From the IMG/VR virus record IMGVR_UViG_3300000116_009373, positions 1-43,670 of that record: a DNA stretch of 43,670 bases; one strand, given 5' to 3'. The notes under the pieces were generated by a model. The model did no database searches. It was given only the letters and a program-made list of their open reading frames with translations, and was not told the DNA's origin. Source of the DNA: a virus. A program made the position numbers and the translations under genes. Positions 14,278 through 39,064 of this stretch are shown piece after piece (the stretch's first letter is position 1; every line of letters begins with the position of its first letter).

Positions 14278-14742
14278 TTAATCTTTAAAAAAATCAATAT
14301 ATTCTAGTGCATCCATGAATTCCCCCTGTGGAAATTTTTTCATAGTAGTCATGTCCGTTTTATGCTTATAATATTTATCCGTATTTGGAATTTTAAATTT
14401 TTCTTTTTCTTCCTCAGAAACAGCTTTAACCCTAACTCCACACCATGACCATTCTCTATAATCTTTACCATTAATAAAAACTGTCCCTTTATCTGGGAGG
14501 TTAATGGAAGAAGGATACCATACTCGACCTAGTTCATCTCCTACTTTTAAATCTTTATATAACTCAGGAATTGTTTCTTCATATTGGGTAAAGTCAAATT
14601 CTCCTTGAACCATTAAATCGTTAGTAGTAAACCCACAACCAAAACAAAAATAATTTTTAGCTGTAGCATTAAGTTCAGTAGTATAACAGGCATCACTCCC
14701 GCATTTCATACAACTACCGAGTTCATCTTTATGTTTTTTCAT
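14278..14742 (-). CDS. Zinc-ribbon protein of unknown function, 154 aa
   Basis: Starts with a four-cysteine zinc ribbon: CMKCG near residue 11 and CFGCG near residue 33. The rest is a mixed alpha/beta domain with no recognised catalytic motif. It contains an EWSWCGVRVKAV segment and a run of charged residues (SEEEKEKFK). It sits between a GT4 and a GT2 gene, but zinc ribbons of this kind are common in phage proteins that contact nucleic acid or other proteins, so membership in the glycan pathway is not assured. Confidence 0.6.
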   Translation of the reverse strand: MKKHKDELGSCMKCGSDACYTTELNATAKNYFCFGCGFTTNDLMVQGEFDFTQYEETIPELYKDLKVGDELGRVWYPSSINLPDKGTVFINGKDYREWSWCGVRVKAVSEEEKEKFKIPNTDKYYKHKTDMTTMKKFPQGEFMDALEYIDFFKD

Positions 14743-16031: not shown

Positions 16032-16033
16032 AA

Positions 16034-23204: not shown

Positions 23205-23205
23205 G

Positions 23206-23499
23206 TTAGTCTTCTAAAATTGATAATATTGAACTTTGTGCTGTAATGTAGAATTCTTCTCCATCAACCGTTACTGTTTGGGCACCTAATTTTGGGATTA
23301 AAACTTTCATACCTACTTTTAATATTGAAGGAACGTCCTTACCTATATTAAAATTATAATATGGAGCTAAAGCTACTATTTCTCCCATTTCTGGTTTTTC
23401 TTTACCCATATCAGGAATAATAATATTACCTGACATCATTTCTTGTTCTTCTATGGGACGAAGAATAACGTTCCCATTTACTGGTTTTAATTTACTCAT
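23206..23499 (-). CDS. groES: Co-chaperonin GroES
   Basis: A 97-aa co-chaperonin of the standard bacterial size, not the longer T4 gp31 type. Its N-terminal VNGNVILRPIEEQE, the mobile loop around EMMSGNIIIPDMG, and the GEIVALAP strand are typical; the mobile-loop hydrophobic triplet that docks on GroEL is III. It is directly upstream of groEL, so the pair probably works together. It overlaps the 93-aa gene upstream by four bases. Confidence 0.93.
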   Translation of the reverse strand: MSKLKPVNGNVILRPIEEQEMMSGNIIIPDMGKEKPEMGEIVALAPYYNFNIGKDVPSILKVGMKVLIPKLGAQTVTVDGEEFYITAQSSILSILED

Positions 23500-23777
23500 T
23501 TTAAAATTGCTTGTTTTAGTTTTAGATGTGTTTCTTTAAATTCTTCAGCATATTCAGTTAAGGCATATGTCTTATCTTTTAACATTTGATGTTTTGCAAT
23601 TGCTAATATAGCATTGGGTAATTCTGTATGAAAACCAATGGTTTTATTTTTAACAGTATCTACCACATTAAAACTATACTCATCAATTGCGATCTTATAA
23701 TTCCCTAATAGGGGATCTTCGATAAATGTTGATTTGCCAGAACCTTTTGGTCGGCCTTTAAAATTAGGATTTGCCAT
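23496..23777 (-). CDS. Hypothetical protein with AT-hook-like N-terminus, 93 aa
   Basis: Begins with a GRPKGSGK segment like an AT-hook, followed by a beta-rich core and a C-terminal helix (HLKLKQAILK). It is the first gene of the chaperonin transcript, overlapping groES by four bases. A TATAAATA stretch and a CGTATATTCACG element lie just upstream. A DNA-binding role is possible; the function is unknown. Confidence 0.65.
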   Translation of the reverse strand: MANPNFKGRPKGSGKSTFIEDPLLGNYKIAIDEYSFNVVDTVKNKTIGFHTELPNAILAIAKHQMLKDKTYALTEYAEEFKETHLKLKQAILK

Positions 23778-23783
23778 AACGTT

Positions 23784-23810
23784 TATATTTATTTATACGT
23801 GAATATACGA
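23784..23810 (-). promoter_or_regulatory. Promoter-like region of the chaperonin operon
   Basis: Reading the minus strand, CGTATATTCACG is followed by TATAAATA, the latter identical to the T4 late-promoter core, within 40 bases of the start of the 93-aa gene. The 71-base gap (23778-23848) has no gene. This is the best-placed promoter for the groES-groEL-H1 transcript. Confidence 0.4.
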
Positions 23811-23832
23811 AAGATTATTTAAATAACCAAGT

Positions 23833-23842
23833 TCTAGGGCGA
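23833..23842. repeat. Inverted repeat, copy 1, flanking hsp20
   Basis: TCTAGGGCGA, whose exact reverse complement TCGCCCTAGA lies at 24351-24360. This copy is six bases downstream of the hsp20 stop codon. Ten-base perfect inverted repeats around a single gene may mark a transferred cassette or a pair of regulatory sites. These GC-rich words stand out in very AT-rich surroundings. Confidence 0.5.
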
Positions 23843-23848
23843 AGCTTT

Positions 23849-24289
23849 TTATTTAATTGTTAAGGTTTTAATACCTTTACCTTCTTTAAGAGGAACCATA
23901 ATAGTTAAAAGTCCATTTTTAAATGAAGGGATGGCTTTTGAAAGTTCAAATTTTGGATCAACTTTCCAACCTAAGTTAAATGATCGTTTTGCAATACCTC
24001 TATAAAGATATTCTAATCTTAACTCTTCTTGTAATTCCTCATCTTCAGAATTAACTTTTTTATTATAGTTAACTCTAAGTGTTTGACCTTCTACTAAAAT
24101 TTCGAGGTCATTTTTATCAATGCCAGTACAAGCAATCTCAAATGTGAGACCTTCTATGGTTTGATAAATATCTAAGGGGTGGGATAATTTAAGGTTTTGT
24201 TCTACAGGTCTGTAGTTACCTTCTTGTGTTAGAAAATTCCTAACTAATAAATCGAATGGTGTTCTTTCGAACAAATTTAATGTACTCAT
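23849..24289 (-). CDS. Small heat-shock protein Hsp20
   Basis: Alpha-crystallin domain protein of 146 aa. The N-terminal part is variable; the domain runs from about residue 45 (LDIYQTIEGLTFEIA) through an EILVEGQTLRV strand, and it ends with the conserved KNGLLTIMVPL motif (A/G-x-L class) and a C-terminal tail. Hsp20 holds unfolding proteins for refolding, here plausibly handing them to the neighbouring GroEL/GroES. It stands alone between two intergenic regions containing a ten-base inverted repeat. Hsp20 genes are common in T4-like cyanophages. Confidence 0.9.
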   Translation of the reverse strand: MSTLNLFERTPFDLLVRNFLTQEGNYRPVEQNLKLSHPLDIYQTIEGLTFEIACTGIDKNDLEILVEGQTLRVNYNKKVNSEDEELQEELRLEYLYRGIAKRSFNLGWKVDPKFELSKAIPSFKNGLLTIMVPLKEGKGIKTLTIK

Positions 24290-26163: not shown

Positions 26164-26558
26164 AACGATTCTGCTATTAATTTTTTAAATTTTGTTGTAG
26201 ACCACCCATGGTCTCTAGTAATCCAAAATATAGGAATGTTTAAATCACTTCCTGTAAATTCTTTACCTTGATAATCTACACCTTGAAAACGAACATCATA
26301 ATTTGAAGTAGATAAAATTCTATATAAATCTTCTTCTGTTTTATAAGTTCTTACACTATTAATAGTACTAAGTGCTAACAATATATCAATTCGTTCTAAG
26401 GAAGATAATATTGGTTTTAGTTTTTCAGGACGTTCTATAGAAGGGTCTTGATGTAATAAAACTGTTAACCTATCACATTGAAGACTTGCTATATTAAACA
26501 TTTGAACATAACCCGGATGAATTACATCAAAAGCACCTGCTATAACTCCTTTAATCAT
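26160..26558 (-). CDS. Cytidylyltransferase, TagD/glycerol-3-P type
   Basis: Nucleotidyltransferase of 132 aa, the size of TagD (129 aa). GAFDVIHPGY replaces the usual GTFDxxHxGH: the first histidine is kept and the second is Tyr. The C-terminal signature WSTTKFKKLI corresponds to ISTTKIKEEI. VRFQGVDYQGKEF matches the family's substrate loop. It should transfer CMP to a small phosphate such as glycerol-3-phosphate. The missing second histidine of the HxGH motif may weaken or change the activity. It is between phosphomannomutase and the second polymerase half. Confidence 0.75.
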   Translation of the reverse strand: MIKGVIAGAFDVIHPGYVQMFNIASLQCDRLTVLLHQDPSIERPEKLKPILSSLERIDILLALSTINSVRTYKTEEDLYRILSTSNYDVRFQGVDYQGKEFTGSDLNIPIFWITRDHGWSTTKFKKLIAESL

Positions 26559-27478
26559 ATAAAAAACTGGTTAACATATGGATTAGTGGTTAATCTCCAT
26601 CCTAAATCGCTATAAAATCCTTCTAATTTATTTAATAGAATAGTATCAAATACTTTTTCTTTATCAGCAAAACGATTTAAAAAATCTCTAATCTTATCAG
26701 GCATATCAAAATCAAGATAAGCTAATGCTTCTATATTATATGGATTTTTTTTCATATAAATCCATTTTACTTTATCTCCTTGAACTACAGGACTATGTTT
26801 TTTACTTAATTGCCAATAATTGAGTAAGTCATTATATTTTATTGTAGCACGAACAGCAGCAGGTGCCCCTTTGCGTATAACTGTAAAGGCTTCTGCGCCT
26901 ACAGGCTTGCGTTCGATATACTTATTTAATGTTTTTACTCCCGTAGGATTACCTAATTCCTCAATAGGCATGTCATGTAGTATCTTTTTTTTAAAATCTA
27001 ATATACGTTTATCTATATCACCTTGAGGAGTACCTTTTAACACATCTTCAAGAGCATTTTTAAAAAAATTACCAAATACCTTAGGGAAGTTTGATTTTTT
27101 ATACTCTAATCCTTTTACATCTAATACTTCTTTTTTAATACCCTCTTGTTTTGTAATCCATTGAGCATAACGTCTTGGGGCTCTAAAATAGGCAGAACGA
27201 ATTACTGCCTCTGTTTTCATCTCTAGTCTATGATCGTTAACATTAAAACAATCTCGAGCAAGACTATCATAATGATTACTAATATAATCTTGGTAATAGA
27301 GAGCAATTTTTTCCAGTTTACTATCTTTTTCTTCATCTGAAAGTTCTTCAAAATTAGGGTTTAAATGATTTAAAAGAGGTTCGGCATTAAAATAATTAGA
27401 ATCCGTATCAACATAAGCACAATAGTTTATGTCTTCTTCATCACAAATATACCAAGGTGTTTCTTCTAAATGTTTCAT
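26555..27478 (-). CDS. 43B: DNA polymerase family B, C-terminal half (gp43B)
   Basis: Completes the polymerase begun at 28103-29818. Motif C is YVDTDSNYF at residues 22-30, holding both catalytic aspartates (D24, D26). The remaining 270 residues are thumb domain. A short hydrophobic C-terminus (VNQFFI) could be the clamp-binding tail. The protein begins just before motif C, at a position where T4 gp43 is uninterrupted. It should bind the A half to give one active enzyme. The 924-base gene overlaps both neighbours by one to four bases. Confidence 0.88.
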   Translation of the reverse strand: MKHLEETPWYICDEEDINYCAYVDTDSNYFNAEPLLNHLNPNFEELSDEEKDSKLEKIALYYQDYISNHYDSLARDCFNVNDHRLEMKTEAVIRSAYFRAPRRYAQWITKQEGIKKEVLDVKGLEYKKSNFPKVFGNFFKNALEDVLKGTPQGDIDKRILDFKKKILHDMPIEELGNPTGVKTLNKYIERKPVGAEAFTVIRKGAPAAVRATIKYNDLLNYWQLSKKHSPVVQGDKVKWIYMKKNPYNIEALAYLDFDMPDKIRDFLNRFADKEKVFDTILLNKLEGFYSDLGWRLTTNPYVNQFFI

Positions 27479-27738
27479 TAAAACGTTCTTTCTCCAGGAA
27501 CCTGAACTATTCCTCCGTCCGATTGTCCTATACTATTTAATATACGCTCTCTAAGTTTAATTTCAAACTGGATTCCATCAAATTTAAATTTACCTCCTTG
27601 TTGGAGCATTTTACGAAAAAATATTTCGCGTTTTTCGCTCCAAGATTCACTCATTTTTATAAGTTCTTCTTTTGTAGCGAGTTTATCATCCACCATTACG
27701 TGAATTCCTTTTCTTAATGCTTGTTTTGTTAATGCCAT
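27478..27738 (-). CDS. Hypothetical protein, 86 aa, between polymerase halves
   Basis: Basic protein with an N-terminal helix containing LTKQALRKGIHVMVDDKLATK, a middle helix, and a GGKFKFDGIQFEIKLRERI strand-helix. No known motif. It separates the cupin gene from polymerase half B and shares a TAATG junction with the latter. It is not an endonuclease by any motif I can see. Function unknown. Confidence 0.6.
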   Translation of the reverse strand: MALTKQALRKGIHVMVDDKLATKEELIKMSESWSEKREIFFRKMLQQGGKFKFDGIQFEIKLRERILNSIGQSDGGIVQVPGERTF

Positions 27739-27740
27739 GT

Positions 27741-28103
27741 TTATGTTCTATTATGATCGTCTTCTAATCTTACAATGTCGTCTTCACCAAAGTAAGTCCC
27801 TGTTTGTACTTCTATAAATTGTACTATTTCATCTGTTTCATTCCATGCTCTATGTTTAGCACCTAATGGTATTTTAATTGATTCACCTGGTTCTCTAAAT
27901 ACTTTTTCATTATCTAAAATAATAGTTAAATTACCTCTTATTACAGTCCATTGTTCTTGGCGTTTATAGTGATATTGATAAGATAATCTTTTTCCAGGAG
28001 CAACTGTTATCCGTTTAACTTTACATTCATTTGAATTAAGTAATACTTCATACATACCCCAAGGACGACTTTCTACATTATCTTTTATATATTCAAATTC
28101 CAT
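27741..28103 (-). CDS. Mannose-6-phosphate isomerase-type cupin
   Basis: Single-domain cupin, 120 aa, matching the C-terminal isomerase domain of type II phosphomannose isomerases. RPWGMYEVL is the family start, YHYKRQEQWTVIRG is the first cupin motif with metal-binding histidine and glutamate, KIPLGAKHRAWN is the second, and IEVQTGTYFGEDDIVRLEDD is the family C-terminus. It should convert fructose-6-phosphate to mannose-6-phosphate, feeding the viral phosphomannomutase. It lies between the two DNA polymerase halves, an odd place for a sugar gene. Confidence 0.85.
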   Translation of the reverse strand: MEFEYIKDNVESRPWGMYEVLLNSNECKVKRITVAPGKRLSYQYHYKRQEQWTVIRGNLTIILDNEKVFREPGESIKIPLGAKHRAWNETDEIVQFIEVQTGTYFGEDDIVRLEDDHNRT

Positions 28104-29818
28104 TATACTTCTAACTTTAATTCATTCTTCATAACTTTATTCATATGACGATTAGCAACTAAGGCTGATTCTTGAATTATGCGCCATCCTGATAATGTAA
28201 TGGCTTCACTTAATATAGACAAAGGCATTCCATATCTAAATGAATTTAGTGCTGTAGCTCCATATAAGGAATTAAGTAAAATTTTCATTGTATATTGTAG
28301 TAAATGGTTTTTAGCACCACCTTCATTATTGCCTGCTTTATAACATTTTTTCATTTCATTTTTATATATAACTCTTTCATTAAACCATTTATTTAAAACA
28401 GTAGATAATACAGATTCTTTATCTGTTTTAAAAAAGGTACCATTTGCAGCAACTGACCAATTATTCTTTTCTATTAAGTCAATTAATTGACCAATACTTA
28501 CTCTACGGGTATTATCACTATTTCTATTAGGATCTAATATTACTACTTCTTCCTCAGGATTTTTTTCTTTTAAATCATTTAATCCTAATCTATTATTACG
28601 ATCATCAGGATCTACTATTTTACCTACAATAGTTTCCCTACCAATATTTAAGGTCATTATAATTGAGGGATATAATGAAGTTAAATCTTCATCAAACATA
28701 TATTTATAAAGACCTGCTTTAGGACAAAATAAATAACCTCCAGCATAATTTAATTTTTTTTCCCCTTTAGGTCTTCCAGGGGGTATAATTTTTTGAGAAA
28801 GTAAATATGATGAAATAGCACCATCATGAATTTTTGAAGAAGCATATACCTCACTATAACGAACTTTACCTTTATGTGCTAAATTTTTAGTTAAAGCAAG
28901 ATATTGGAGTTTTTTATCTAATTCAACTAATATTTCAACATCAACAAAGTTATATTGAATGAATTTATGTATATTTTCTTCAAATAGTTTATCAAGTGAA
29001 CCTTCGTATTCGATTTTATTAATTCCTACATATTTTTCACCAATAGAATCTAATTTCCAACTTGGCTCGTCTTCCCAACTATATTTTTTATGTAATCTCA
29101 TATAATCAAGTGATTCAACACCTGCTATATCTACAAATTGATCTCTTTTATACCAATATTTATTGTTTTTTTTATATTTTACAACTCCGATAGGAGATAA
29201 ACGTTTAGCATCTTTTTCACCTAAAACAATACACATTCTATGAAATAGATAAGGAATATCAAAGTAATCACTATTATAACCTACTAAAATATCTGGTTCT
29301 ATCTCTTCCATTTTATTTAAAAATGTATCTAATAGATCAGCCTCATATCTTAATGGTATAATTTCTTTATTTTTAGTTTTTGTACGTTTTAATATACCTT
29401 TTTTATCTAAAATAACAATAGACCACCAATCTGCTTGTTTATCATACCAAGCAATAGAAGTAATAGGTTTAGGAGCATTAGAAATGTATTCTTCAGTTAA
29501 TGCTCCTCCCATTTCACATTCTATATCAAAAAATACTTCTCTATGAGAAGTAGATGGTTCATCATTAATACCATATTCTTCTATAAGAAATTTTTGGTGA
29601 GCTGAGATATCAGCAAAGTGTAAACCATGAGTGTTTCTGTCCCAATTATGAGTACGTATTAAATGTTCTCCCTTTAATCCTTTATATTTAGCATCTTCTT
29701 CTCGACACTCTCTATAAGCATAATTGTTCCAATTAATCTGTCTATAACCATCATCATCCCACAAGTGTATAAGGTGTTTATTTTCACCTTTACCTTGTTC
29801 GTAGATCTTTTTATACAT
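28103..29818 (-). CDS. 43A: DNA polymerase family B, N-terminal half (gp43A)
   Basis: Exonuclease and palm/fingers part of the replicative polymerase, 571 aa. Exo I is FFDIE (D98, E100), exo II is GYNSDYFDIPYL near 180-191 and exo III is in YNFVDVEI (D293). Motif A is DLTSLYPS at 378-385 and motif B is in ILLNSLYGA towards the end. It stops after motif B, shortly before motif C, which is on the separate gene at 26555-27478. T4 gp43 is 898 aa; the two halves together are 878. The split resembles those reported for gp43 in some T4-like phages. It is translated before the cupin gene, sharing its stop with the cupin start. Confidence 0.92.
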   Translation of the reverse strand: MYKKIYEQGKGENKHLIHLWDDDGYRQINWNNYAYRECREEDAKYKGLKGEHLIRTHNWDRNTHGLHFADISAHQKFLIEEYGINDEPSTSHREVFFDIECEMGGALTEEYISNAPKPITSIAWYDKQADWWSIVILDKKGILKRTKTKNKEIIPLRYEADLLDTFLNKMEEIEPDILVGYNSDYFDIPYLFHRMCIVLGEKDAKRLSPIGVVKYKKNNKYWYKRDQFVDIAGVESLDYMRLHKKYSWEDEPSWKLDSIGEKYVGINKIEYEGSLDKLFEENIHKFIQYNFVDVEILVELDKKLQYLALTKNLAHKGKVRYSEVYASSKIHDGAISSYLLSQKIIPPGRPKGEKKLNYAGGYLFCPKAGLYKYMFDEDLTSLYPSIIMTLNIGRETIVGKIVDPDDRNNRLGLNDLKEKNPEEEVVILDPNRNSDNTRRVSIGQLIDLIEKNNWSVAANGTFFKTDKESVLSTVLNKWFNERVIYKNEMKKCYKAGNNEGGAKNHLLQYTMKILLNSLYGATALNSFRYGMPLSILSEAITLSGWRIIQESALVANRHMNKVMKNELKLEV

Positions 29819-29833: not shown

Positions 29834-31102
29834 TCAATACGTTTTAGCATCATCTTGATCTCTATGATCTTCTGATATATCATAACCCGGATTATAGGGT
29901 GTTTTTGGTGCAGAACGTAATTTATTCTCAATTATAGGTTCATCTACAGACTTAGTTACTTCAGATTTTTTACCATAATATGGAGCATTTTTATCTAAAT
30001 ATTCATCTATACTTGATAACTTATCCTTCAATGTACGAATTTCTACTGAGGTATCCTCGTATTTATTAGATAATTCTTCATAGTGTTCTCCATCGTTACC
30101 ATTTCTACCAATTATATTCATTCTTTTTTCACCTTCATCTTCGTCCCAATCCCCTAAATTAAAATTTTTATTTTCTTTATTAATCTTATCTTGAGCTTCT
30201 TCAGCAAGACTAATTGCCTCATCTATTCCATCATCCCATTTTTCATCATTATCAAAAACAGAAAGAACATCTTCTTCTCGTTTAGGGAAGGCTTGAGCAA
30301 AAGCAAAATTAGCTGCAATAACAAGTGAAATAGCTAATGGATCAAAAACAAATATTATTGTTAACAACAATATATTAATAATTTTATCCATTGGGATCCC
30401 TGTTAAACCAGATAGATATTGTAAAGGTCCTAATTCACCTGCTACTCCTGCATTATTTTCTAAATCTAAGATTTTAAATTGGTATTTTTGTAAGGAATCG
30501 GCTGCCACTTCTCGTTTAGTTTGAACCTTTTGTCGGTTTTCTTCTTCCACTTCGATACGTTTTTGGGATAACCTAAGTTCTGTAGTAGAGATTGTTTGTC
30601 GAAAGCCTGAAGATACCGAGGTGTCTCGTACTTGGATGTTCGAAACTTTCGCATTAGATAAAGTAGAAATGTTATTAGAGATTCTTTCAAGTTCCTGATC
30701 ATATCGTATTATATCTTTTTCATAAAATTGTTTCTTTTGGTCTAAAAAGGATACTTGATTTTCCTTAATAGTTAATTGTCTATAGGTATCTTGGTATGCA
30801 GCACTTAAAAAACCATAAATACCCATACTAGTAATTAATACTAATATTATAGTAGCAATACTTAAATAAATTTTAAGTAATTTGTTAATAGTACTCCAAT
30901 ATTGGTATAATAATGAAGCTATTATTAACTTAGCTACTTCTAAAGAACCAGCCATAATAATTACTTCAAATGAGGCTCCAGCAAATAGTTTTGACAAACC
31001 ACTAACAGAATAAAATGCTGCGGATGCAGATACTGAAAGTGCTGAAAAAGCTATTATAAATGGAAAAAAACCTTTCTTAATTGAATTTAGAAAGTTCTTC
31101 AT
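29834..31102 (-). CDS. Membrane protein with coiled coil, 422 aa
   Basis: About four membrane segments: residues about 12-32, 43-66, 76-100 and 245-270. Between the third and the fourth lies a long charged coiled-coil-like region (about 105-230), rich in Gln, Lys and Glu. The C-terminal 150 residues are acidic and soluble (for example DEDEGEKRM). No enzyme motif is seen. It could reshape or tether the host inner membrane or join replication to it. It overlaps the MazG-like gene by 26 bases, and the start is the only Met before the first membrane segment. Confidence 0.7.
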   Translation of the reverse strand: MKNFLNSIKKGFFPFIIAFSALSVSASAAFYSVSGLSKLFAGASFEVIIMAGSLEVAKLIIASLLYQYWSTINKLLKIYLSIATIILVLITSMGIYGFLSAAYQDTYRQLTIKENQVSFLDQKKQFYEKDIIRYDQELERISNNISTLSNAKVSNIQVRDTSVSSGFRQTISTTELRLSQKRIEVEEENRQKVQTKREVAADSLQKYQFKILDLENNAGVAGELGPLQYLSGLTGIPMDKIINILLLTIIFVFDPLAISLVIAANFAFAQAFPKREEDVLSVFDNDEKWDDGIDEAISLAEEAQDKINKENKNFNLGDWDEDEGEKRMNIIGRNGNDGEHYEELSNKYEDTSVEIRTLKDKLSSIDEYLDKNAPYYGKKSEVTKSVDEPIIENKLRSAPKTPYNPGYDISEDHRDQDDAKTY

Positions 31103-31607
31103 CTTTAAAAAATTTAGTTAAATTAGGACGAAAATAACTGATAGATTTCATGACCTTTCTATCTCTAGTTCGGTACACGACATACATATTATCTAACTTT
31201 TCCCAATGGCAATCCTCACCTTGCTCTGTAGCTCTTTGGCTAACAGTCTGTATGGCTTCTTCTTCAGTTTTGCATGCTTTAGACATATTAGATGCTTGTA
31301 CTTCTTGATAGGCGGGCCATATCTTATTTTTAAGACCGTGTAGCATGGTACCATTCCCAAGGGAAACATAAGCAATATCACACAAAGCATCCAAAACTTC
31401 CACGATGTTTCCTGTTTCGCAAGCTTCCTTATATTCTTCGAGTTCTTCAAGAATAAAATCGTAGACAAATTGCCATTCTTTTTTTTCTGGAATTGTGGGT
31501 TCATAATTGTTAGGTTTTCCAAATGTAGCGTTAAATATTTCTACTTCATCTACAAAGGGTACTCGGGGGGTATTACTAAAACCAAATAAGTCTAATTGTT
31601 TACTCAT
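31077..31607 (-). CDS. MazG/HisE-like NTP pyrophosphohydrolase
   Basis: All-alpha NTP pyrophosphatase. The metal motif is ExxE: LEELEEYKEA with E54-E58, followed by ExxD and a further D in VLDALCDIAY (E70, D73, D77). Then a SLGNGTMLHGL segment and a KIWPAYQEVQASNMSK segment follow, as in phage and bacterial MazG-like or phosphoribosyl-ATP pyrophosphatase-like proteins. The C-terminal 60 residues are a separate small domain. It may clean up noncanonical dNTPs or reduce (p)ppGpp-type signals; the substrate cannot be read. Confidence 0.75.
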   Translation of the reverse strand: MSKQLDLFGFSNTPRVPFVDEVEIFNATFGKPNNYEPTIPEKKEWQFVYDFILEELEEYKEACETGNIVEVLDALCDIAYVSLGNGTMLHGLKNKIWPAYQEVQASNMSKACKTEEEAIQTVSQRATEQGEDCHWEKLDNMYVVYRTRDRKVMKSISYFRPNLTKFFKDEELSKFN

Positions 31608-31999: not shown

Positions 32000-32419
32000 T
32001 TAAAATTTTGTTTTGTCTCTTTCTGTTAGAGCTGTATGCATTTCCCATGGAAACTCTATCCATTCATCGCCTACAACTTTACCATAAATATCGGGTTGTA
32101 TTGAAGCTGTTTTTTTAGTAAATAATGTTAATGTAAGACAATTAGGGTATTTTTCTTTAATTTTTTCTAATGTTTCTCCTGAATCACATATGTCATCTAC
32201 AATTAAAGTATTTGAGGCATCTTCTTGAGTTACAGGTTGTTTATATTCTATCCCTGTTCTATGAGATAATAAGACAGCAGGAATTAAACCTCCTCTAGGA
32301 ATACCATATATAAATAAAGGTGGTTTAAATCCTATTTTTTTAATTTTTTCAGTTAGGATTTTTATAATATCTTCAATATCAGAAAAAAATAATATTTGTT
32401 TACCTTCTAAATTTATCAT
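32000..32419 (-). CDS. Purine-type phosphoribosyltransferase
   Basis: Type I PRTase fold, 139 aa. The PRPP loop is TLIVDDICDSGET with both acidic residues; an IYGIPRGGL segment is the PPi loop. A C-terminal DEWIEFPWE segment resembles the hood region of xanthine-guanine PRTases. It is expected to salvage guanine, xanthine or hypoxanthine into nucleotides. It directly overlaps folE, which uses GTP, so it may feed the deazapurine pathway or reuse the guanine released by the DpdA-like transglycosylase; this link is inference. Confidence 0.8.
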   Translation of the reverse strand: MINLEGKQILFFSDIEDIIKILTEKIKKIGFKPPLFIYGIPRGGLIPAVLLSHRTGIEYKQPVTQEDASNTLIVDDICDSGETLEKIKEKYPNCLTLTLFTKKTASIQPDIYGKVVGDEWIEFPWEMHTALTERDKTKF

Positions 32420-33111
32420 ATCGAATGTGTTCCATTATTAATTTTAATTGAATCAAAAAATTCTTGACGTGCTAAACTTGTATTATCTCTAAATACCCCT
32501 GATGCTTTAGTTGTAACCATTGAAGCACCATTATGTTTTACACCTCTACAAGATACACAATTATGAGTTCCAACTACTGTTACTACAACACCTTTATTTC
32601 CTTCTGTGATTTTTTCTACGGCATTATGGATTGCTGAGGTTAATTGTTCTTGGATAGCACCTCTACGACCAAATAATTCTACAATTCGATTCAATTTAGA
32701 TAAACCAATTACTTGTCCTTCTTCACCAGCAACATATCCTATGTGTACTACACCTTGAATTGTTTGATGGTGGTGAGAACACATGGAAGTTAGGGGAATA
32801 TTACGTTCTATAATGACACCATCATAACCATCGGATGGGAATGAAGTAATTTCACTCATAGCAGTATATCTGCCTCTCCATAAATCATTTACATATGCTT
32901 TAGCTACACGTCTTGGTGTATCTGATGAATTAGGATCGTTTTTCCAATCACATTTTAAAGCATCTAAAAATTTACCATATGCTTCAGTTGCTTCCGATAT
33001 CATTAAGTCCTTTTGATTTTGGTCTAAAGGAAAACCTTCAGCTACCCCGTTTGCAAAACCCTCTTGCACTACTTCTAATTCGTTGTGTATTTTTTTTCTT
33101 TGTTTATTCAT
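32416..33111 (-). CDS. folE: GTP cyclohydrolase I
   Basis: Converts GTP to dihydroneopterin triphosphate, the first step of 7-deazaguanine synthesis. Zinc ligands are C111 and H114 in SMCSHHHQ and the cysteine in HNCVSCRG; GLSKLNRIVELFGRR and the final VVTTKASG-like region are family signatures. Length of 231 aa is normal. In this window it is the source of the pterin precursor for the QueD-like and QueE proteins. It overlaps the phosphoribosyltransferase gene by four bases and is followed upstream by two small genes. Confidence 0.93.
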   Translation of the reverse strand: MNKQRKKIHNELEVVQEGFANGVAEGFPLDQNQKDLMISEATEAYGKFLDALKCDWKNDPNSSDTPRRVAKAYVNDLWRGRYTAMSEITSFPSDGYDGVIIERNIPLTSMCSHHHQTIQGVVHIGYVAGEEGQVIGLSKLNRIVELFGRRGAIQEQLTSAIHNAVEKITEGNKGVVVTVVGTHNCVSCRGVKHNGASMVTTKASGVFRDNTSLARQEFFDSIKINNGTHSI

Positions 33112-33135
33112 AATATAACTTAATATAATAACCTT

Positions 33136-33279
33136 TTATTTAACTTCAAAGTCTTTGATGTATTCTTCTAAAATATCTACTAATACTAATACATCATCAG
33201 GATCCATTGTAACTGCACAACAAGTATTTATATTCTCTTTTATTGTACTTAAAACCTCTAATGCTGCTTCTTTAGTCAT
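33136..33279 (-). CDS. Small acidic protein, 47 aa
   Basis: Translated from an ATG at 33279 whose reading frame overlaps the end of the 53-aa gene by eight bases (AATGACTAA). The protein is mostly helical and acidic, with KENINTCCAVTMDPDD in the middle and a LVDILEEYIKDFEVK end. No family is recognised. The tight overlap with the upstream small gene and absence of any other gene in this 320-base gap support it as real. Confidence 0.5.
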   Translation of the reverse strand: MTKEAALEVLSTIKENINTCCAVTMDPDDVLVLVDILEEYIKDFEVK

Positions 33280-33433
33280 TCCAATTTCTGATAATATTCC
33301 ATACTATAAAAATATTACATATTACTGCTTGTAATACTATTAAAGTTCTTATAAAAGCAATTTTATCTGCTTCTTTTGTGGTTCCAACTTTTTCACCTAA
33401 GGCTTTAGCCCATACCCTCCAAAATGTTTTCAT
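33272..33433 (-). CDS. Small single-span membrane protein, 53 aa
   Basis: Begins TAATG with the stop of queE, so it is coupled to it. MKTFWRVWAKALGEKVG is followed by a charged helix and one hydrophobic stretch (about residues 31-46, LIVLQAVICNIFIVWN) ending in a basic tail. Proteins with the same FWRxWAKALGEK start are, from memory, frequent in T4-like marine phages. It is likely a small inner-membrane protein; its function is unknown. Confidence 0.6.
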   Translation of the reverse strand: MKTFWRVWAKALGEKVGTTKEADKIAFIRTLIVLQAVICNIFIVWNIIRNWND

Positions 33434-34206
33434 TACACTTCACGTTCTGTATCAAAAGCCATAATGTGAGCACGTCCTGTAAACCTCCATCCTTTATCTC
33501 TTACAAAATCCATAACTACAGGATAACTTTCCATTAATGAAATACGATCATCCCCCGCGGGCATTGCCCATACTTTTTCATTAGGGATTTCTAATTCATT
33601 TAAAAAATCTTCAACTTCTCCAACCATTGAAAGCTCTTTGTCAAGGACAGGCTTAATATGGTAGTCATGGTGATAATCAATACTTTTTTTAATTGCATCT
33701 TTATTTAATCTGAGTTTGTTGTGGCGTGTGACCATTTTTTCATCCGTAATTGCACCTTGAGGTGTCTTAACTCCCAATACAGGAATACTATTGGAAAACT
33801 TAGGACTAATACTAAGAAGATTAATGGGATAGTCAGTAGCAAGAAAATGGCTTCCTTCAGTTTCAATAGTAACAAATATATTTCTTTCATTAGCGAGATG
33901 TGTTAATTCATTTACAAGGGCGGGGTGCATAGTTGGTGACCCTCCTGTTAACATCATTTCTGTAATGTGAGGGTTTTCATCATACATTTTAATTATATCA
34001 TTAAATGCATATTTTCCTTTTTCAGGATGAATAGAAGTATACCAAGAATCACACCATCCACCTTCGCCAAAATAGCATCGATGTGTGCATCCAGATGTAC
34101 GTACAACAATGGTAGGATAACCTTGACGACTTCCTTCACTTTGTACTGCGGTATATACTTCGACAATTGGGAGAACTTTAGAATAGTCCTCAACTCTTTT
34201 TAACAT
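33433..34206 (-). CDS. queE: 7-carboxy-7-deazaguanine synthase (QueE-like)
   Basis: Radical SAM enzyme that rearranges carboxytetrahydropterin into 7-carboxy-7-deazaguanine. EGSRQGYP precedes the cluster site, as in QueE. The three cluster cysteines are C40, C44 and C52 (GCTHRCYFGEGGWCDSW), giving a C-x3-C-x7-C spacing instead of the usual C-x3-C-x2-C. A later TGGSPTMHP segment is the SAM-binding GGEP region. Length 257 aa is slightly long. It belongs with folE, the QueD-like and the QueC-like genes, from which it is separated by the tail-type gene. Confidence 0.88.
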   Translation of the reverse strand: MLKRVEDYSKVLPIVEVYTAVQSEGSRQGYPTIVVRTSGCTHRCYFGEGGWCDSWYTSIHPEKGKYAFNDIIKMYDENPHITEMMLTGGSPTMHPALVNELTHLANERNIFVTIETEGSHFLATDYPINLLSISPKFSNSIPVLGVKTPQGAITDEKMVTRHNKLRLNKDAIKKSIDYHHDYHIKPVLDKELSMVGEVEDFLNELEIPNEKVWAMPAGDDRISLMESYPVVMDFVRDKGWRFTGRAHIMAFDTEREV

Positions 34207-34276
34207 ATGTTAATTTTTTTAAGTGGTTTTACAGTCACTTGACCATTTATATTGGTCCCAATATAATAAAACTATT

Positions 34277-35617
34277 TTAGGTATCCAAACTATCTAATCG
34301 AGTTTTTAAATCTATTATTTCTTTTTGTTGATCTTGAACAGCTTTAATTAATAAAGATGTTAATTTAGAATATTTTATACCATCCGCTCCTCCATTTTCA
34401 TCAATATGTACTAATTCAGGGATGTGTTTTTCTACTTCTTCTGCAATTAATCCTATATCTTTAAACCCAGTATCTTTCCAATCAAATGTAACAGGACGTA
34501 ATTTATATAAATTAGCTACTGAATCTAAACTAGATACATTTTGCTTATATCTTAAAGCTGAGGTTTCTGTTATGCTAGTAGCAAAGAAAGTACCTGTAAC
34601 TGCTAAAGAACCTGTTATATCAGCTGATCCGCTAAATGGAAATCCTGAAGCAGCACCACCACCTGCGTTTAATGCAAATGAAGCAGTTTCAGCAAATGAA
34701 GATGAAATAACACCTACAATTTGAGCTCCACTACCTGTAAAAGATCCTGTATAAGAACCAGTCATTGATCCTGATAGGAAAGAATAAAAACTACTTGAAA
34801 ATGAACCTGTAAATGGACCATCACCACTTGCTGCAAATGAACCAGAGGTAATAATATTAACAGAAGAACTTTCAGCATATGATGCTGTAACAGCAAAAGA
34901 GGCTGAGGTAATTGTACCTAGTACTACAGAAGCTGTATCTGCAGATGTTGCATTCCCTTCTAAAGCACCTATAAATTTAGTTGCTGTTAATGTATTAGTA
35001 GAAGGAACATAATTAAGCCCTATATCTGTATTAGCTCTATGACTTCCAGATGTACCTTGAGCAAATAAAATATAATTTGTACTAGCATCACTATCATCAG
35101 GATTTACAAATACATTTGTTGCTAATGTTGCTTCCGAGGCAGATACTGCATAACTAGAAGATATAGCATGACTTGCTGTAACCGCATGTGATGAAGTTAT
35201 TGTTCCTGTTAATCCAGAACCATCACCTTGATATGACCCACTAAATGAACCACTGATATAAGGACTATTTAAAGAACCCGTTATGGTTACACTACCTGTA
35301 AATTGATGAGTATCATCTAAGGAATCTCCAAACTTAGTAGAACCACTTGCAAATATAATAGAAGAAGATTCATACGTAGTTACTAAATAAGTAATAGAAG
35401 CAGTACCATCTATAATTAAATTTCCAGACATACTAACAGAACCCGTAAAAGCGGTTGTCCCACTTACAAATAATGATCCTGTGAGCGCAGTTGAACCTGA
35501 TAAATCTAGTGAAGCAGTTAAACGAGTATATCCTAATCCATTTTGAATTCTCTCATTTTCTATATGTAATAACTGATCATAGGTAGACTTGATCGTCCTA
35601 TTAGTGAATGTAGACAT
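34277..35617 (-). CDS. Tail-type protein with S74 self-cleaving chaperone
   Basis: 446 aa. The first about 340 residues are low-complexity Ser/Thr/Gly/Ala repeats (for example TGSLFVSGTTAFTGS and SHAVTASHAISSSYAVSAS), as in long fibrous phage proteins. The last about 95 residues are a Peptidase S74 intramolecular chaperone: TSALRYKQNV (S353 and K358 as candidate catalytic pair), RPVTFDWKD, DIGLIAEEVEKHIPELV, and a C-terminal trimerising helix. The chaperone trims itself after assembly. It is a late structural gene lying inside the deazaguanine set, with its own upstream terminator and TATA-type motif. Confidence 0.85.
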   Translation of the reverse strand: MSTFTNRTIKSTYDQLLHIENERIQNGLGYTRLTASLDLSGSTALTGSLFVSGTTAFTGSVSMSGNLIIDGTASITYLVTTYESSSIIFASGSTKFGDSLDDTHQFTGSVTITGSLNSPYISGSFSGSYQGDGSGLTGTITSSHAVTASHAISSSYAVSASEATLATNVFVNPDDSDASTNYILFAQGTSGSHRANTDIGLNYVPSTNTLTATKFIGALEGNATSADTASVVLGTITSASFAVTASYAESSSVNIITSGSFAASGDGPFTGSFSSSFYSFLSGSMTGSYTGSFTGSGAQIVGVISSSFAETASFALNAGGGAASGFPFSGSADITGSLAVTGTFFATSITETSALRYKQNVSSLDSVANLYKLRPVTFDWKDTGFKDIGLIAEEVEKHIPELVHIDENGGADGIKYSKLTSLLIKAVQDQQKEIIDLKTRLDSLDT

Positions 35618-35640
35618 TTACAGCTGTTTTTTGTACTATG

Positions 35641-35651
35641 ATAAATATATA
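35641..35651 (-). promoter_or_regulatory. TATATATTTAT element before the tail-type gene
   Basis: Minus strand TTTATATATTTATC lies about 23 bases before the start of the tail-type gene and directly after the terminator hairpin. It is a good copy of the recurrent motif and would fit a late promoter for a virion protein. Confidence 0.4.
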
Positions 35652-35653
35652 AA

Positions 35654-35674
35654 GGAGACCGCTTAAGCGGCCCC
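35654..35674 (-). terminator. Terminator-like hairpin after the QueC-like gene
   Basis: In the minus-strand transcript GGGGCCGC, loop TTAA, GCGGTCTC forms an eight-base-pair stem with two G-U pairs, followed by CTTTATATA. The two wobble pairs work only in the minus-strand RNA (they become A-C mismatches in the other), which supports use on the minus strand. It lies 26 bases after the QueC-like stop codon. Confidence 0.6.
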
Positions 35675-35699
35675 ATTTTTTAAAAATTTAATTTATTTA

Positions 35700-36509
35700 T
35701 TAAGCATCACCCAATACTGCAGTATGATTTGCTAAAAGTTCCTTTACATATGTTTCCGCAATATCATATTTAACTTCTCCACTTTCATCCTCATATTGTA
35801 CGGGATCTTTACGACCCAAATTAATAAACGCTTCAATTCTTTCAACAGATGAAGCACTTTTGTAATCAGAGTTACCTGATGGGTAGGGTTTGTATGAGGT
35901 ATTTGTTCTTTTGTATACTTCATCAAAATCCAATTCCAATTGTTTAATGAGTTCTTGTCCATCTTTTAATATTCCAAGTTTATCTGTGTCTAAATATGGG
36001 GTAAAATAGCCAACACGATCAGCTTCCCAATTTCCAATTCTAAATGCGGCATCATCGGCATCTCTAAATTCTTGTCTACAATCAGGATAAATAGCATGAT
36101 CTCCAGCGTGAATGCCTAAAGCAATATCTGTTTTTTCTTCAGTATCATTTGCTATAGATAATGCTACAGCTTGAACAATAGAAGCAAATATTTTATTCCT
36201 ATTAGGTACAACTGTTTCTTTCATATTATCTTGTTCATAATGACCTTCAGGAACATCCTCACCTCCATCTACTAAAGCTGAGCTTAATAATTGTGATAAT
36301 CCATCAAGTTTAACTACTTGATATGTAATATAATGCCCATTTTCTTTTAAATAGTCTACTAATTCTTGGGCTTTATCTAATTCTACTTTATGTTTTTGAC
36401 CATAATCAAAAGATAAAGCAGTTACTGTATTATACTCAGTTAATGTTCTAAGTAATAATGTTGAGGAATCCATTCCTCCACTTAAGGATACTACGACGTT
36501 TTTTGCCAT
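35700..36509 (-). CDS. queC: QueC-like protein lacking zinc cysteines
   Basis: PP-loop ATPase related to 7-cyano-7-deazaguanine synthase. The ATP loop is SLSGGMDSST at residues 8-17, VVPNRNKIF and HAGDHAIYPDCR match the QueC substrate region, and DPVQY near the end is also typical. In place of the four zinc-binding cysteines of QueC the protein has serine in TNTSY (S205) and DYKSASSVER (D215, S218, S221), so the zinc site is lost. Length of 269 aa is normal. Either the enzyme manages without zinc, or it acts on 7-carboxy-7-deazaguanine in another way. It is next to the DpdA-like gene. Confidence 0.82.
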   Translation of the reverse strand: MAKNVVVSLSGGMDSSTLLLRTLTEYNTVTALSFDYGQKHKVELDKAQELVDYLKENGHYITYQVVKLDGLSQLLSSALVDGGEDVPEGHYEQDNMKETVVPNRNKIFASIVQAVALSIANDTEEKTDIALGIHAGDHAIYPDCRQEFRDADDAAFRIGNWEADRVGYFTPYLDTDKLGILKDGQELIKQLELDFDEVYKRTNTSYKPYPSGNSDYKSASSVERIEAFINLGRKDPVQYEDESGEVKYDIAETYVKELLANHTAVLGDA

Positions 36510-36511
36510 TT

Positions 36512-36697
36512 TTATTTATTTTTCTTTTGCCAGGTATTACTAAGCGTATAGGCAAACGCTTTAAATTTACATTTTATATAAGAAATAATATACGAAAAGA
36601 TTGTTGATATCCCAAATCCTCCTATTAAAAGGGTCCAAATATTTGGGTGAAAATGTTCTCCACAAAAACCAAAAATATGTTTAATTATTTCTGTCAT
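36512..36697 (-). CDS. Small membrane protein, 61 aa
   Basis: One central hydrophobic stretch (about residues 20-41) after an N-terminal IIKHIFGFCGEHFHPN segment, with a basic tail. Similar small proteins with FGFCGEH are, from memory, seen in other T4-like phages. It lies between the DpdA-like and QueC-like genes and overlaps the former by 17 bases. Function is unknown. Confidence 0.6.
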   Translation of the reverse strand: MTEIIKHIFGFCGEHFHPNIWTLLIGGFGISTIFSYIISYIKCKFKAFAYTLSNTWQKKNK

Positions 36698-37484
36698 AAT
36701 TTTTTAATCCATTTATTTTACGAAATTGTTTTACATTTGTTAATACTAAATTATAATTTAATGCATTATGATTTATATCAAAATAAGTATTCATATTAGG
36801 AGATGGTTTTTTATTTAAACCAAAACTTTTATATTTAATACCTTCTAAAGCTGACATAATGGGGTTTGATGTGTCAATCGATTCTATTTGTGGATGGTTA
36901 TCATACCAACCAAATTCCTGTGGAATTGAACAACCTAATAAATGGAGTTTAATATCATTAAAATTATTTAATTTTAGTAAACCATTTACAAATCTTACTC
37001 TACCTAATGATTTTCCCATATCTACATTAGTATGAGGAAAAAAACTATTATACCAAGTTGCACCATATGAAACACATAATTTTTTATAACCTAAATTTAT
37101 TAATAAATTAGCACATAAATAAGCTTCATTTTTATCTTCACCTTGAATTACCGCTACTAATTTTGTTTTTTCTGGGTATTCAAATTGTTTCCAATATTTA
37201 GCCTGTGCAGCTGTTTGACTACATTTCATCCAAACATCAGGTACAATAAATTCATCGGGTTCTAATTCATCAATCCAATATCTTAAACGTCTATGATCAT
37301 ATGCTTCACCTAATTCGTGAAGCGAATTATCCATTATAATATAACGTCCTTGTTTTTTAGATTCATAAAAGAAGTTTTTATATTGTTCATCCTTATCTAA
37401 TAGATGAGGGAGGCAATAATCATAATCATTCCATTCACGACTATTATTTAATAAACAACGGGGAACTTCATGACTAACCTTCAT
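36681..37484 (-). CDS. dpdA: DpdA-like DNA guanine transglycosylase
   Basis: Resembles the TGT superfamily in its phage DNA form (DpdA). In order: MDNSLHELGE at residues 51-60 (D52 as first acid), VPDV at 81-84, AVIQGE near 112, HLLGCSIP at 181-188 and SIDTSNPI at 202-209, where D204 is the candidate nucleophile. TGT has the same order of blocks ending with the nucleophilic aspartate. No TGT-type zinc motif is visible. It should exchange guanine in DNA for a 7-deazaguanine. The ATG at 37484 is preferred to the in-frame GTG at 37493. It is encoded with the QueC- and QueD-like genes, which supports the call. Homology is remote, so confidence is moderate. Confidence 0.75.
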   Translation of the reverse strand: MKVSHEVPRCLLNNSREWNDYDYCLPHLLDKDEQYKNFFYESKKQGRYIIMDNSLHELGEAYDHRRLRYWIDELEPDEFIVPDVWMKCSQTAAQAKYWKQFEYPEKTKLVAVIQGEDKNEAYLCANLLINLGYKKLCVSYGATWYNSFFPHTNVDMGKSLGRVRFVNGLLKLNNFNDIKLHLLGCSIPQEFGWYDNHPQIESIDTSNPIMSALEGIKYKSFGLNKKPSPNMNTYFDINHNALNYNLVLTNVKQFRKINGLKNYDRNN

Positions 37485-37938
37485 ATATAGCACTATTTTT
37501 ACTGTGTTCCATAAATTCTACCCTTACTACTTTAACTCTGTTTTTAGTTTCAGCTTTAACAAAGGTATTTAATTTATTAAAAACATATTCAGCAAATTTT
37601 TCTGCTCCAACTGCTGGGACTACTCTTACTTGTGCTACTTCATGTACACCCATTGATTGAAACGATTCTACAAATGGATCATCTTCTGCTACTATAACAG
37701 TATGATCAAACATATAATCCATCCACTCTTTAGGGGATTTACCATCAATTTGAGTTTCAGCACGTTTCATACCTCCAAAATCCCAAACCCAGTTTTTTTC
37801 ATCTAATTCACCTTCAAACCATACTTTAAATGATATCCCATAACCATGAAGATATTTACAGTGTGTTTCTTCTGCTTTAAATTGACGAAATACAGTTGAG
37901 AACCCGTCAAATATTTTTGTTGATTGAAATTTACCCAT
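37474..37938 (-). CDS. queD: QueD-like 6-carboxytetrahydropterin synthase variant
   Basis: 154-aa member of the PTPS/QueD fold. The catalytic cysteine is C27 (HCKYLHGYG), an aspartate-histidine pair lies at D78-H79 (FDHT), and a WVWDFGGMK segment matches the DFxxLK region. The zinc site is altered: the first histidine (FSAAH in QueD) is phenylalanine (F17), and HGH becomes HGY (H31 kept, Y33). Two of three zinc ligands are therefore replaced. From memory, similar FRQ...HGY forms occur in other marine T4-like phages, so this may be a conserved phage subfamily. It precedes the DpdA-like gene by an 11-base overlap. Confidence 0.8.
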   Translation of the reverse strand: MGKFQSTKIFDGFSTVFRQFKAEETHCKYLHGYGISFKVWFEGELDEKNWVWDFGGMKRAETQIDGKSPKEWMDYMFDHTVIVAEDDPFVESFQSMGVHEVAQVRVVPAVGAEKFAEYVFNKLNTFVKAETKNRVKVVRVEFMEHSKNSAIYEG

Positions 37939-38179
37939 TATAAAAATTTAAAATTGCTTCTTTTGATTGCATTCCTACTAACCTCCCTTTAGCAACTCCT
38001 GATTCATCTACTAAAATTAATGAAGGTACATTTCTAACTCCATATTTTATAGACATATCTTGGTTACCATCTACATCAACTTTTTGAAAGTTAATTTGTC
38101 CACTTAAAGAATCCATTACTGGACCTAATGTTTTGCATGGCCCACACCATGCTGCAGTAAAATAAAGTATTTTTTTCAT
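37931..38179 (-). CDS. Thioredoxin
   Basis: Short thioredoxin, 82 aa, with FTAAWCGPCK (C12-x-x-C15) and the cis-proline segment VRNVPSLILVD. Full-length thioredoxins are about 105 aa, so this is the minimal fold. A likely role is electron donor to the viral ribonucleotide reductase encoded 1-4 kb upstream, or redox upkeep of other enzymes. It overlaps the QueD-like gene by eight bases. Confidence 0.9.
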   Translation of the reverse strand: MKKILYFTAAWCGPCKTLGPVMDSLSGQINFQKVDVDGNQDMSIKYGVRNVPSLILVDESGVAKGRLVGMQSKEAILNFYNG

Positions 38180-38192: not shown

Positions 38193-38381
38193 TTAAACTA
38201 ATTCTTCATAAACACCAACCACTTCAGCTAAAAGTAATCCTATAAATCCTATTTCATACCATCCCCATAATCCAGCTACACAAGCTACAATTCGGATTGT
38301 TGATTTGATAAAAGATACTATTTGGTGTAATTTTGGGTTAGGCAGTTTTTCTAGGTCTACCTCTTTTTTTAATTTGTTCAT
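38193..38381 (-). CDS. Small membrane protein, 62 aa
   Basis: Basic N-terminal 30 residues followed by one or two closely spaced hydrophobic segments (about residues 32-58, with GLWGWYEIGFIGLLL). No family is recognised. It overlaps the upstream 171-aa gene by 44 bases, which is more than usual here, but there is no later Met, so the start is taken as given. Function unknown. Confidence 0.55.
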   Translation of the reverse strand: MNKLKKEVDLEKLPNPKLHQIVSFIKSTIRIVACVAGLWGWYEIGFIGLLLAEVVGVYEELV

Positions 38382-38853
38382 AACTTATATGTAATATTTT
38401 ATATTTGTCATCTATATGATAATAAAAATCAATCAGGGAACCACTAAAGTTTACCATTTCCTCTTTTACTTGTTCCTTATTAACACGAAAGTATTTAGGA
38501 AACTCATTATATAATGAATTTAACTTATCAAATTCATCTTTTTCAAAATCTTCAAGTAAACGTTTGCGACGTGCTCTTAATACAGCACCTTTTTCTACAA
38601 ACAAACCACTATCACCATTACATTCAATTTCCAAATCATTTAGTTCATGTTCAACCCATGCTGCTTGATACCAATAATGTGAAAAATCATAATCACCATT
38701 AAAAATACGATCGCGAAGTGGTTTACGATTATCTAATGGTTTGACTTTTGTATCATACATTCTCCACCATCGAAATTGATTGTAATTGAGTTTTTGTAAT
38801 TTAGAAAACTCCTTTTTTAAACGAGAACGTGATAGGGTAGGATTAAATGCCAT
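38338..38853 (-). CDS. Hypothetical protein with basic tail, 171 aa
   Basis: The ATG at 38853 (MAFNPTLSRSRLKKEF) is preferred over an upstream TTG. The protein is rich in aromatic and basic residues: FRWWRMYDTK, LDNRKPLRDRIFNGDYDFSHYWYQ, and a KKRGRPRKTA tail that looks like an AT-hook. It is probably a DNA- or RNA-binding protein. Function unknown. It overlaps the 73-aa gene by 11 bases. Confidence 0.6.
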   Translation of the reverse strand: MAFNPTLSRSRLKKEFSKLQKLNYNQFRWWRMYDTKVKPLDNRKPLRDRIFNGDYDFSHYWYQAAWVEHELNDLEIECNGDSGLFVEKGAVLRARRKRLLEDFEKDEFDKLNSLYNEFPKYFRVNKEQVKEEMVNFSGSLIDFYYHIDDKYKILHISYEQIKKRGRPRKTA

Positions 38854-39064
38854 ACTTCTTTTTATAACGTTCAATGAATATTTTCCCCATACCTACTTCT
38901 TTGATAATTGCCTTATTAGGTATACCAGGTATGCGGTAATCTAAATCTATTAGTTCATCAATATTTCTATTGCTAACAGTCTTTATTTTAATTTTTGCAT
39001 TTGAATTTTTTGATGTTGCAAATACAATTGAAATTGGTATTTTTGGATATTTTCCGTCTGCCAT
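38843..39064 (-). CDS. Hypothetical protein, 73 aa
   Basis: Small protein with a beta strand segment (IPISIVFATSK) followed by RIPGIPNKAIIKEVGMG and a basic helix (KIFIERYKKKYGI). The second half looks like a short DNA-contacting element. It follows a CGTATATTTACG element and starts a short three-gene run. Weak AAGG precedes the start. Function unknown. Confidence 0.55.
   Translation of the reverse strand: MADGKYPKIPISIVFATSKNSNAKIKIKTVSNRNIDELIDLDYRIPGIPNKAIIKEVGMGKIFIERYKKKYGI

Follow-up and report, generated by a model that had tools for sequence, protein, structure and literature searches.

Which base does this marine phage locus make, and into which molecule is it placed? Replacement of guanine in DNA by a preQ0-type base is a known anti-restriction disguise, and complete guanine replacement is one mark of the phage DpdA3-type subfamily. 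The original prediction, made from sequence, placed FolE, QueD, QueE, QueC and a DpdA-like transglycosylase at 32416-38179 of the stretch of DNA analysed here (the window, 43.7 kb, apparently a fraction of a larger genome). We consider it highly probable that the locus serves 7-deazaguanine modification of phage DNA by a system of the small-DpdA (DpdA3) type, with guanine exchange mediated by D204 of the transglycosylase.

Organization and conservation of the cluster

Profile matches and the predicted fold recovered all five enzymes, which lie on one strand (minus) with genes for a thioredoxin, a phosphoribosyltransferase (PRTase) and a MazG-like hydrolase. The MazG-like nucleotide pyrophosphohydrolase (31077-31607; PF01503 E 4e-10, phrog_671 E 2e-26) falls just beyond the originally marked span and is part of the conserved neighbourhood; Flavobacterium phage immuto and Cellulophaga phage phiST carry it in their clusters too. 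The PRTase, of the xanthine-guanine type (32000-32419; PF00156 E 1e-10; best PDB matches xanthine-guanine PRTases, E 1e-10), is encoded next to folE, as it is in immuto and most of the complete relatives. FolE, a GTP cyclohydrolase I (32416-33111; PF01227 E 5e-42), and a QueE-like radical SAM 7-carboxy-7-deazaguanine synthase (33433-34206; phrog_2076 E 2e-48) are separated from the remaining enzymes by a tail-fibre-like gene (peptidase S74; 34277-35617) that splits the set. Beyond it lie a QueC-like preQ0 synthase (35700-36509; PF06508 E 2e-40), the 267-aa DpdA-like (DpdA3-type) guanine transglycosylase, assigned by its predicted fold (36681-37484), and, between these two, a putative 61-aa membrane protein on the same strand (36512-36697) found in 50 of 80 relatives. 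A QueD-like 6-carboxytetrahydropterin synthase (37474-37938; phrog_2389 E 3e-41, PF01242 E 3e-15) and a thioredoxin (37931-38179; PF00085 E 1e-16) complete the set; the thioredoxin occurs in 55 relatives, nearly always immediately before queD. The Pfam matches thus bear out the earlier placement of thioredoxin and PRTase at the ends of the set.

The cluster is common to about 80 viral contigs, the 80 best with transglycosylase relatives. Because the same enzymes surround those relatives wherever the contig reaches, the gene set is far beyond chance. A further minus-strand gene (38338-38874), in 75 of 80 relatives and syntenic with dpdA, encodes a conserved 178-aa helical protein with an AT-hook-like tail; it is at most a candidate pathway enzyme, its model (pLDDT 89) matching no PDB fold.

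The four-step pathway read from the sequence is complete: FolE, QueD, QueE and QueC would convert GTP to 7-carboxy-7-deazaguanine and then preQ0, with the amide ADG as a possible partial stopping point. Guanine would then be swapped for the deazaguanine by the TGT-fold enzyme through a covalent intermediate at D204. The PRTase could return the freed guanine to use, and the MazG-like enzyme could trim the dGTP pool; the parts played by PRTase, MazG and thioredoxin are putative.

The transglycosylase adopts a predicted TGT/DpdA fold

The longest frame of the transglycosylase gene (36681-37493) begins with GTG. Family conservation begins at an internal ATG (MKVSHEVP), which we take as the start, giving the 267 residues originally proposed; D204 and D52 of this form are D207 and D55 in the GTG-start frame. 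The AlphaFold model (pLDDT 94.2, pTM 0.91) matched TGT (E 4e-8) and the bacterial DpdA 7ui4 (E 8e-7), a DNA preQ0 insertase of solved structure, in a Foldseek search of the PDB, so the structural prediction put forward as a check of the original assignment gave a TGT/DpdA fold. The profile search proposed alongside it was mixed. Against PDB sequences the top match was 7ui4 (E 4e-4), whereas a Pfam search returned no match, TGT model included, and curated DpdA models matched weakly (NCBIfam E 0.03, far under the cut-off; PADLOC E 0.0017), as did characterised DpdAs by hhalign (probability 4-10%, E 0.003-0.009). The predicted fold settles the TGT/DpdA identity despite these weak matches, and on the basis of the model we assign it with high confidence.

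Six residues are invariant in the family (D55, D86, H184, G187, S205 and D207, GTG numbering). Five blocks of the protein align in register with phage DpdA1, D55 and D207 fall on DpdA1 D63 and D206, and the nucleophile region falls on the SIDS block of 7ui4. We propose D204 as nucleophile, as originally suggested and now backed by the aligned invariant aspartate, and D52 as general acid/base. The CxCxxC zinc motif of TGTs is absent from the protein; as markers of DpdA class, neither this motif nor isoelectric point separates the classes.

The transglycosylase is a member of the family formed by the small DpdAs of Campylobacter phage CP220, immuto and phiST: it is 38% and 34% identical to the small DpdAs of CP220 and immuto over 94-97% of its length, and it groups with small DpdAs on the DpdA tree with branch support of 100/98. 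In the naming of Cui et al. 2023, the small DpdAs from Campylobacter Firehammervirus and from Flavobacterium phages reportedly make up the DpdA3 subfamily. Scans of viral contigs with the phiST and CP220 DpdAs returned few relatives, and a scan with the Weizmannia DpdA returned none.

Exchange on DNA or on free nucleotides

The exchange might instead precede replication. The small transglycosylase would then take a deoxyguanosine nucleotide such as dGMP and swap its guanine, a dNMP-type kinase would carry the product to the triphosphate, MazG or HD hydrolases would clear dGTP and the polymerase would incorporate the new base, replacing all guanines. We regard this as a possible course, distinctly less probable than exchange in DNA. 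What suggests it is a recurring neighbour: with the window's lineage left aside, 12 of 14 loci have a small P-loop kinase-like gene within three genes of dpdA, usually right next to it, compared with 1 of 18 DpdA1/DpdA2-type controls, and that one spurious (a polymerase clamp); the Fisher p of 5e-6 is only indicative, since the loci are partly related and the motif is loose. A homology search, biased by its queries, gave 14 of 14 against 0 of 18. This recurrence hints at exchange on nucleotides before replication, as would the HD domain adjoining dpdA in CP220 and the MazG genes that accompany the clusters of the window, immuto and phiST-type phages. A dGTP-level route has been proposed for Campylobacter phages (PMC6884629), and there is precedent in S-2L, whose whole-genome adenine replacement uses an HD hydrolase beside purZ (PMC8065100).

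Against this, the candidate dNMP kinase failed in the window's own lineage, being adjacent at 0 of 80 loci, while of 12 contigs only 2 have a homologue at some other site, and its identity is weak even where it occurs (top PDB match uridylate kinase, E 0.005). To our knowledge, the phage DpdA enzymes studied to date are thought to act on DNA, and Cui et al. reportedly inferred post-replicative insertion in 2023. If true, nucleotide-level exchange would account for complete guanine replacement, and would make this a TGT-fold enzyme that works on mononucleotides, with a dedicated neighbour kinase supplying modified triphosphate to the phage polymerase.

Precursor enzymes and the likely base

The canonical QueC zinc site is C(x)8CxxCxxC. 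In the window's QueC all four zinc cysteines are replaced and every catalytic motif is kept, a pattern shared by 66 of 66 relatives (SGGxDS, YGQxHxxE, VPxRN and YPDC present, zinc cysteines absent). One QueC study gives SGGxDS, YxQxHxxE, VPxRN and YPDC as the canonical motifs and the motif tyrosine as essential in the E. coli enzyme (PMC13329287); the window's QueC retains that tyrosine. In QueD, HGY replaces HGH with loss of one zinc histidine, and T25 H26 C27..H31 G32 Y33 is conserved in 57 relatives. QueE carries CX3CX7C (GCTHRCYFGEGGWCDS) instead of CX3CX2C, retained in 52 lineage members plus immuto and phiST; other QueE variants exist besides the CX3CX2C motif. FolE C111, H113, H114 and C185 are conserved in 44 relatives. 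The non-standard metal residues first noticed in the sequence are therefore real in QueC, QueD and QueE, and immuto has all three oddities. Given the loss of the QueC zinc site and the QueD histidine, enzyme activity is assumed; the zinc-less QueC probably still forms preQ0, because immuto pairs the same QueC with QueF, which requires preQ0.

In searches that detected their controls, QueF was found neither in the window nor in 12 relatives, and formyltransferase was not found in those relatives; no amidotransferase was noticed beside the cluster. The lack of QueF points to preQ0 or its amide, ADG, as the likely base. The gene content fits preQ0 group 2 (PMC6884629): CAjan and Rosebush, with FolE, QueD, QueE, QueC and DpdA and no amidotransferase, have preQ0 DNA, and CAjan without dpdA has restriction-sensitive DNA (PMC6884629). 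Campylobacter phages have dADG-rich DNA, which the dpdA relative in CP220 fits (PMC6884629). The idea that a zinc-less QueC halts at ADG is weakened by the immuto pairing and by CP220, a member of that dADG-rich group, which retains the zinc site. Later tailoring genes could sit beyond the window, given that it is apparently a partial genome.

The original prediction had allowed for a different end product, and insertion of 7-carboxy-7-deazaguanine, plain 7-deazaguanine or another derivative would suit the altered QueC, QueD and QueE motifs and the occurrence of related DpdAs in whole genomes without QueC (phiST, MA9V-3). We now find it improbable: the QueC catalytic motifs, essential tyrosine included, are intact, immuto's QueF needs preQ0, and the DpdAs of QueC-lacking genomes form a branch separate from QueC-bearing ones, where two short fragments (L126, L127) take their QueC-minus label from clade membership. 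preQ0 or ADG is the better prediction; DNA would be the target and restriction resistance the outcome.

Since the same four enzymes form the queuosine precursor pathway, which some phages have without DpdA (PMC6884629), the cluster might boost host tRNA queuosine. This is very unlikely: the window and 12 relatives lack QueF, required for preQ1 (although a host could provide it), and the transglycosylase lacks the TGT zinc motif and clusters with phage DNA-type enzymes. A protein target, like that of type IV CBASS, where QueC-like Cap9 works with TGT-like Cap10 in deazaguanylation, is less probable still; fold alone is no proof of nucleic-acid exchange, since Cap10 belongs to the TGT family and has a modified protein N-terminus as its target (PMC11996544), but we saw neither a CD-NTase nor another partner in the window, the cluster holds a full de novo pathway, and relatives occur in phages with reported deazaguanine DNA.

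On the favoured reading, marine phages commonly carry a compact guanine-replacement system built on a little-known transglycosylase. The cluster also brings to the known QueCs an enzyme that is apparently zinc-free and otherwise canonical. With a kinase neighbour that recurs, one concrete question becomes testable, namely whether complete guanine replacement is carried out on replicated DNA or on nucleotides beforehand.

Comparison with known systems

Bacterial DpdA (PDB 7ui4) and bacterial TGT share the fold and nucleophile region of the window protein, which is far smaller and has no CxCxxC. The DpdA1 phages (9g, CAjan/Seuratvirus, Rosebush) have the same precursor pathway, with catalytic residues in register, but a larger enzyme and no kinase neighbour; about 28-32% of guanines are modified in Rosebush and CAjan (PMC6884629). 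Among small-DpdA phages, phiST has QueD and QueE 65% and 68% identical to the window's and a DpdA with the fold of the window protein (BFVD TM 0.81), but its genome lacks QueC and its DpdA has a different active-site motif, DNGAGDH, STDSC. The DpdA of Campylobacter Firehammervirus CP220 is 38% identical to the window's over 97% of its length; unlike the window, CP220 keeps the QueC zinc cysteines, has a different QueE motif and scattered genes, and flanks dpdA with HD-ATPase and kinase-like genes. Flavobacterium phage vB_FspM_immuto (NC_055915) encodes the same five enzymes plus MazG and PRTase (QueC 65%, QueE 71%, QueD 67% and DpdA 34-35% identical), its dpdA annotated as a DNA guanine transglycosylase. 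Its gene order differs from the window's, it also encodes QueF and a formyltransferase, and its dpdA has a thymidylate-kinase-like neighbour; these additional genes make a preQ1-type end product likely in immuto.

A deazaguanine modification cluster with a predicted TGT-fold enzyme

The window carries a real 7-deazaguanine modification cluster. Its genes lie on the minus strand where the original prediction had placed them, and strong family matches back their identities: FolE (PF01227, E = 5e-42), QueC (PF06508, E = 2e-40), QueE (phrog_2076, E = 2e-48), QueD (phrog_2389, E = 3e-41), thioredoxin (PF00085, E = 1e-16) and a phosphoribosyltransferase (PF00156, E = 1e-10) whose nearest known structures are xanthine-guanine enzymes. 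The transglycosylase, a small DpdA-like protein (36681..37484, minus strand), has no Pfam match and was assigned to phrog_19058, a family without annotation. Counted from its conserved ATG start at 37484, the protein is 267 aa long.

The TGT fold proposed for this protein was borne out by structural prediction. In Foldseek searches of the PDB, an AlphaFold model built from 33 sequences (mean pLDDT 94.2, pTM 0.91) matched bacterial TGTs (E = 4e-8, probability 1.00) as well as DpdA 7ui4, which inserts preQ0 into DNA (E = 8e-7). Among viral models it matched a protein of Cellulophaga phage phiST (TM 0.81), with DpdA2 of Vibrio phage nt-1 lower in the list. The family profile also had 7ui4 as its top match among PDB sequences (E = 4e-4), the alignment spanning the HxLG and SIDT (nucleophile) blocks. 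Despite a weak profile–profile score against phage DpdA1 (E = 0.003–0.009, probability 4–10%), five catalytic blocks are in register, and D55, D86, H184, G187, S205 and D207 (numbered in the GTG frame) do not vary among distant family members. One relative is longer, with a C-terminal extension (L066:8001-9080, 359 aa in total).

Gene neighbourhood among relatives

Around the best 80 transglycosylase relatives in viral contigs, we found QueC in 70, QueD in 57, thioredoxin in 55, QueE in 53, FolE in 45, phosphoribosyltransferase in 43 and MazG in 42, with many contigs or retrieved stretches stopping short of the cluster end. Most follow the order x178-dpdA-queC-trx-queD-queE-folE-prt-mazG, x178 being a conserved 178-aa neighbour. 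The window departs from it in having trx-queD ahead of dpdA and a tail-fibre-like gene, matched in only 6 of the 80 loci, between queC and queE. Elsewhere, two tandem QueD-like genes adjoin dpdA (L022:3925-4877), and a close relative has a small 4Fe-4S ferredoxin gene directly after thioredoxin (L067:7034-7294), a possible electron donor for the radical SAM enzyme QueE.

Outside the cluster, the window encodes on the minus strand a family B DNA polymerase (26555-29818) that is divided into two frames, 28103-29818 and 26555-27478, separated by a cupin gene. The split falls at the same residue in relatives; L045 and L047 have the two halves side by side, with no cupin gene in between. GroEL (21561-24289, minus strand; phrog_5725, E = 6e-146) has GroES-like and Hsp20-like frames next to it. 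By reading translations, we also noted a long run of sugar-nucleotide, glycosyltransferase and epimerase-like genes (457-17470, minus strand) and, in L066:46-3275, an intein-like sequence and a GIY-YIG-like frame interrupting the ribonucleotide reductase large subunit.

Metal sites and the likely base

The non-standard metal-site residues originally noticed in several enzymes occur in QueC, QueD and QueE and are conserved through the lineage. All four QueC zinc cysteines are gone in the window, in Flavobacterium phage immuto and in 66 of 68 lineage members; SGGxDS, YGQxHxxE, VPxRN, YPDC and a tyrosine within the former zinc region are retained in 66/66. These motifs were defined, and in part probed by mutation, for E. 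coli QueC (PMC13329287). The two exceptions, L038 and L044 (L044:5709-7143), have a different, zinc-bearing QueC instead; in L044 a gene resembling glutamine amidotransferases (GATase_6, E = 4.5e-4) comes after it, which suggests a switch to an archaeosine-type base. QueD has HGY where HGH is expected and the QueE cysteine motif is CX3CX7C; both variants are fixed throughout the lineage and common to immuto and phiST.

QueF requires preQ0. Because immuto pairs a zinc-less QueC with QueF, and also has a formyltransferase, the zinc-less enzyme probably makes preQ0. We found no QueF in the window, and neither QueF nor formyltransferase in 12 relatives (fragments of up to 139 kb); positive controls were detected (immuto and phiSM for QueF, immuto for formyltransferase). 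QueC was not found in the whole genomes of phiST and MA9V-3 or in five 78–98 kb relatives, and a single branch of the DpdA tree (100/99) divides QueC-bearing from QueC-lacking genomes, the window enzyme falling in the former group. Given a probably active QueC, no QueF and this placement, we predict that the base is preQ0, or its amide ADG.

Predicted exchange in DNA or in the nucleotide pool

In phage CAjan, both preQ0 in DNA and restriction resistance depend on dpdA, and a modified-dGTP route has been proposed for Campylobacter phages (PMC6884629). A DpdA relative within the latter group, in CP220, is annotated only as a hypothetical protein. Small DpdAs might likewise act on the nucleotide pool: a small P-loop kinase-like gene lies within three genes of dpdA in 12 of 14 loci outside the window's lineage, against 1 of 18 DpdA1/DpdA2-type controls, that one a polymerase clamp stretch. 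These putative kinases match AAA_28 and AAA_18, with weak matches to thymidylate- or deoxynucleoside-kinase models. In phiST-type viruses (L093:5082-5996, L122:5030-5983) the kinase-like domain follows an N-terminal domain (HRHxF...DRDIE) within a single fusion protein; phiST and L125 encode that N-terminal domain as a gene of its own. However, none of 80 loci in the window's lineage has an adjacent kinase-like gene, and an immuto-type homologue occurs, away from dpdA, in 2 of 12 contigs; pool exchange is therefore a family-level hypothesis, weaker for the window phage. How enzymes of the small DpdA type work can be tested.

The closest known counterpart of the window's cluster is that of immuto. 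The kind of system is already known, and the points of interest are the zinc-free QueC and how the small DpdA works.
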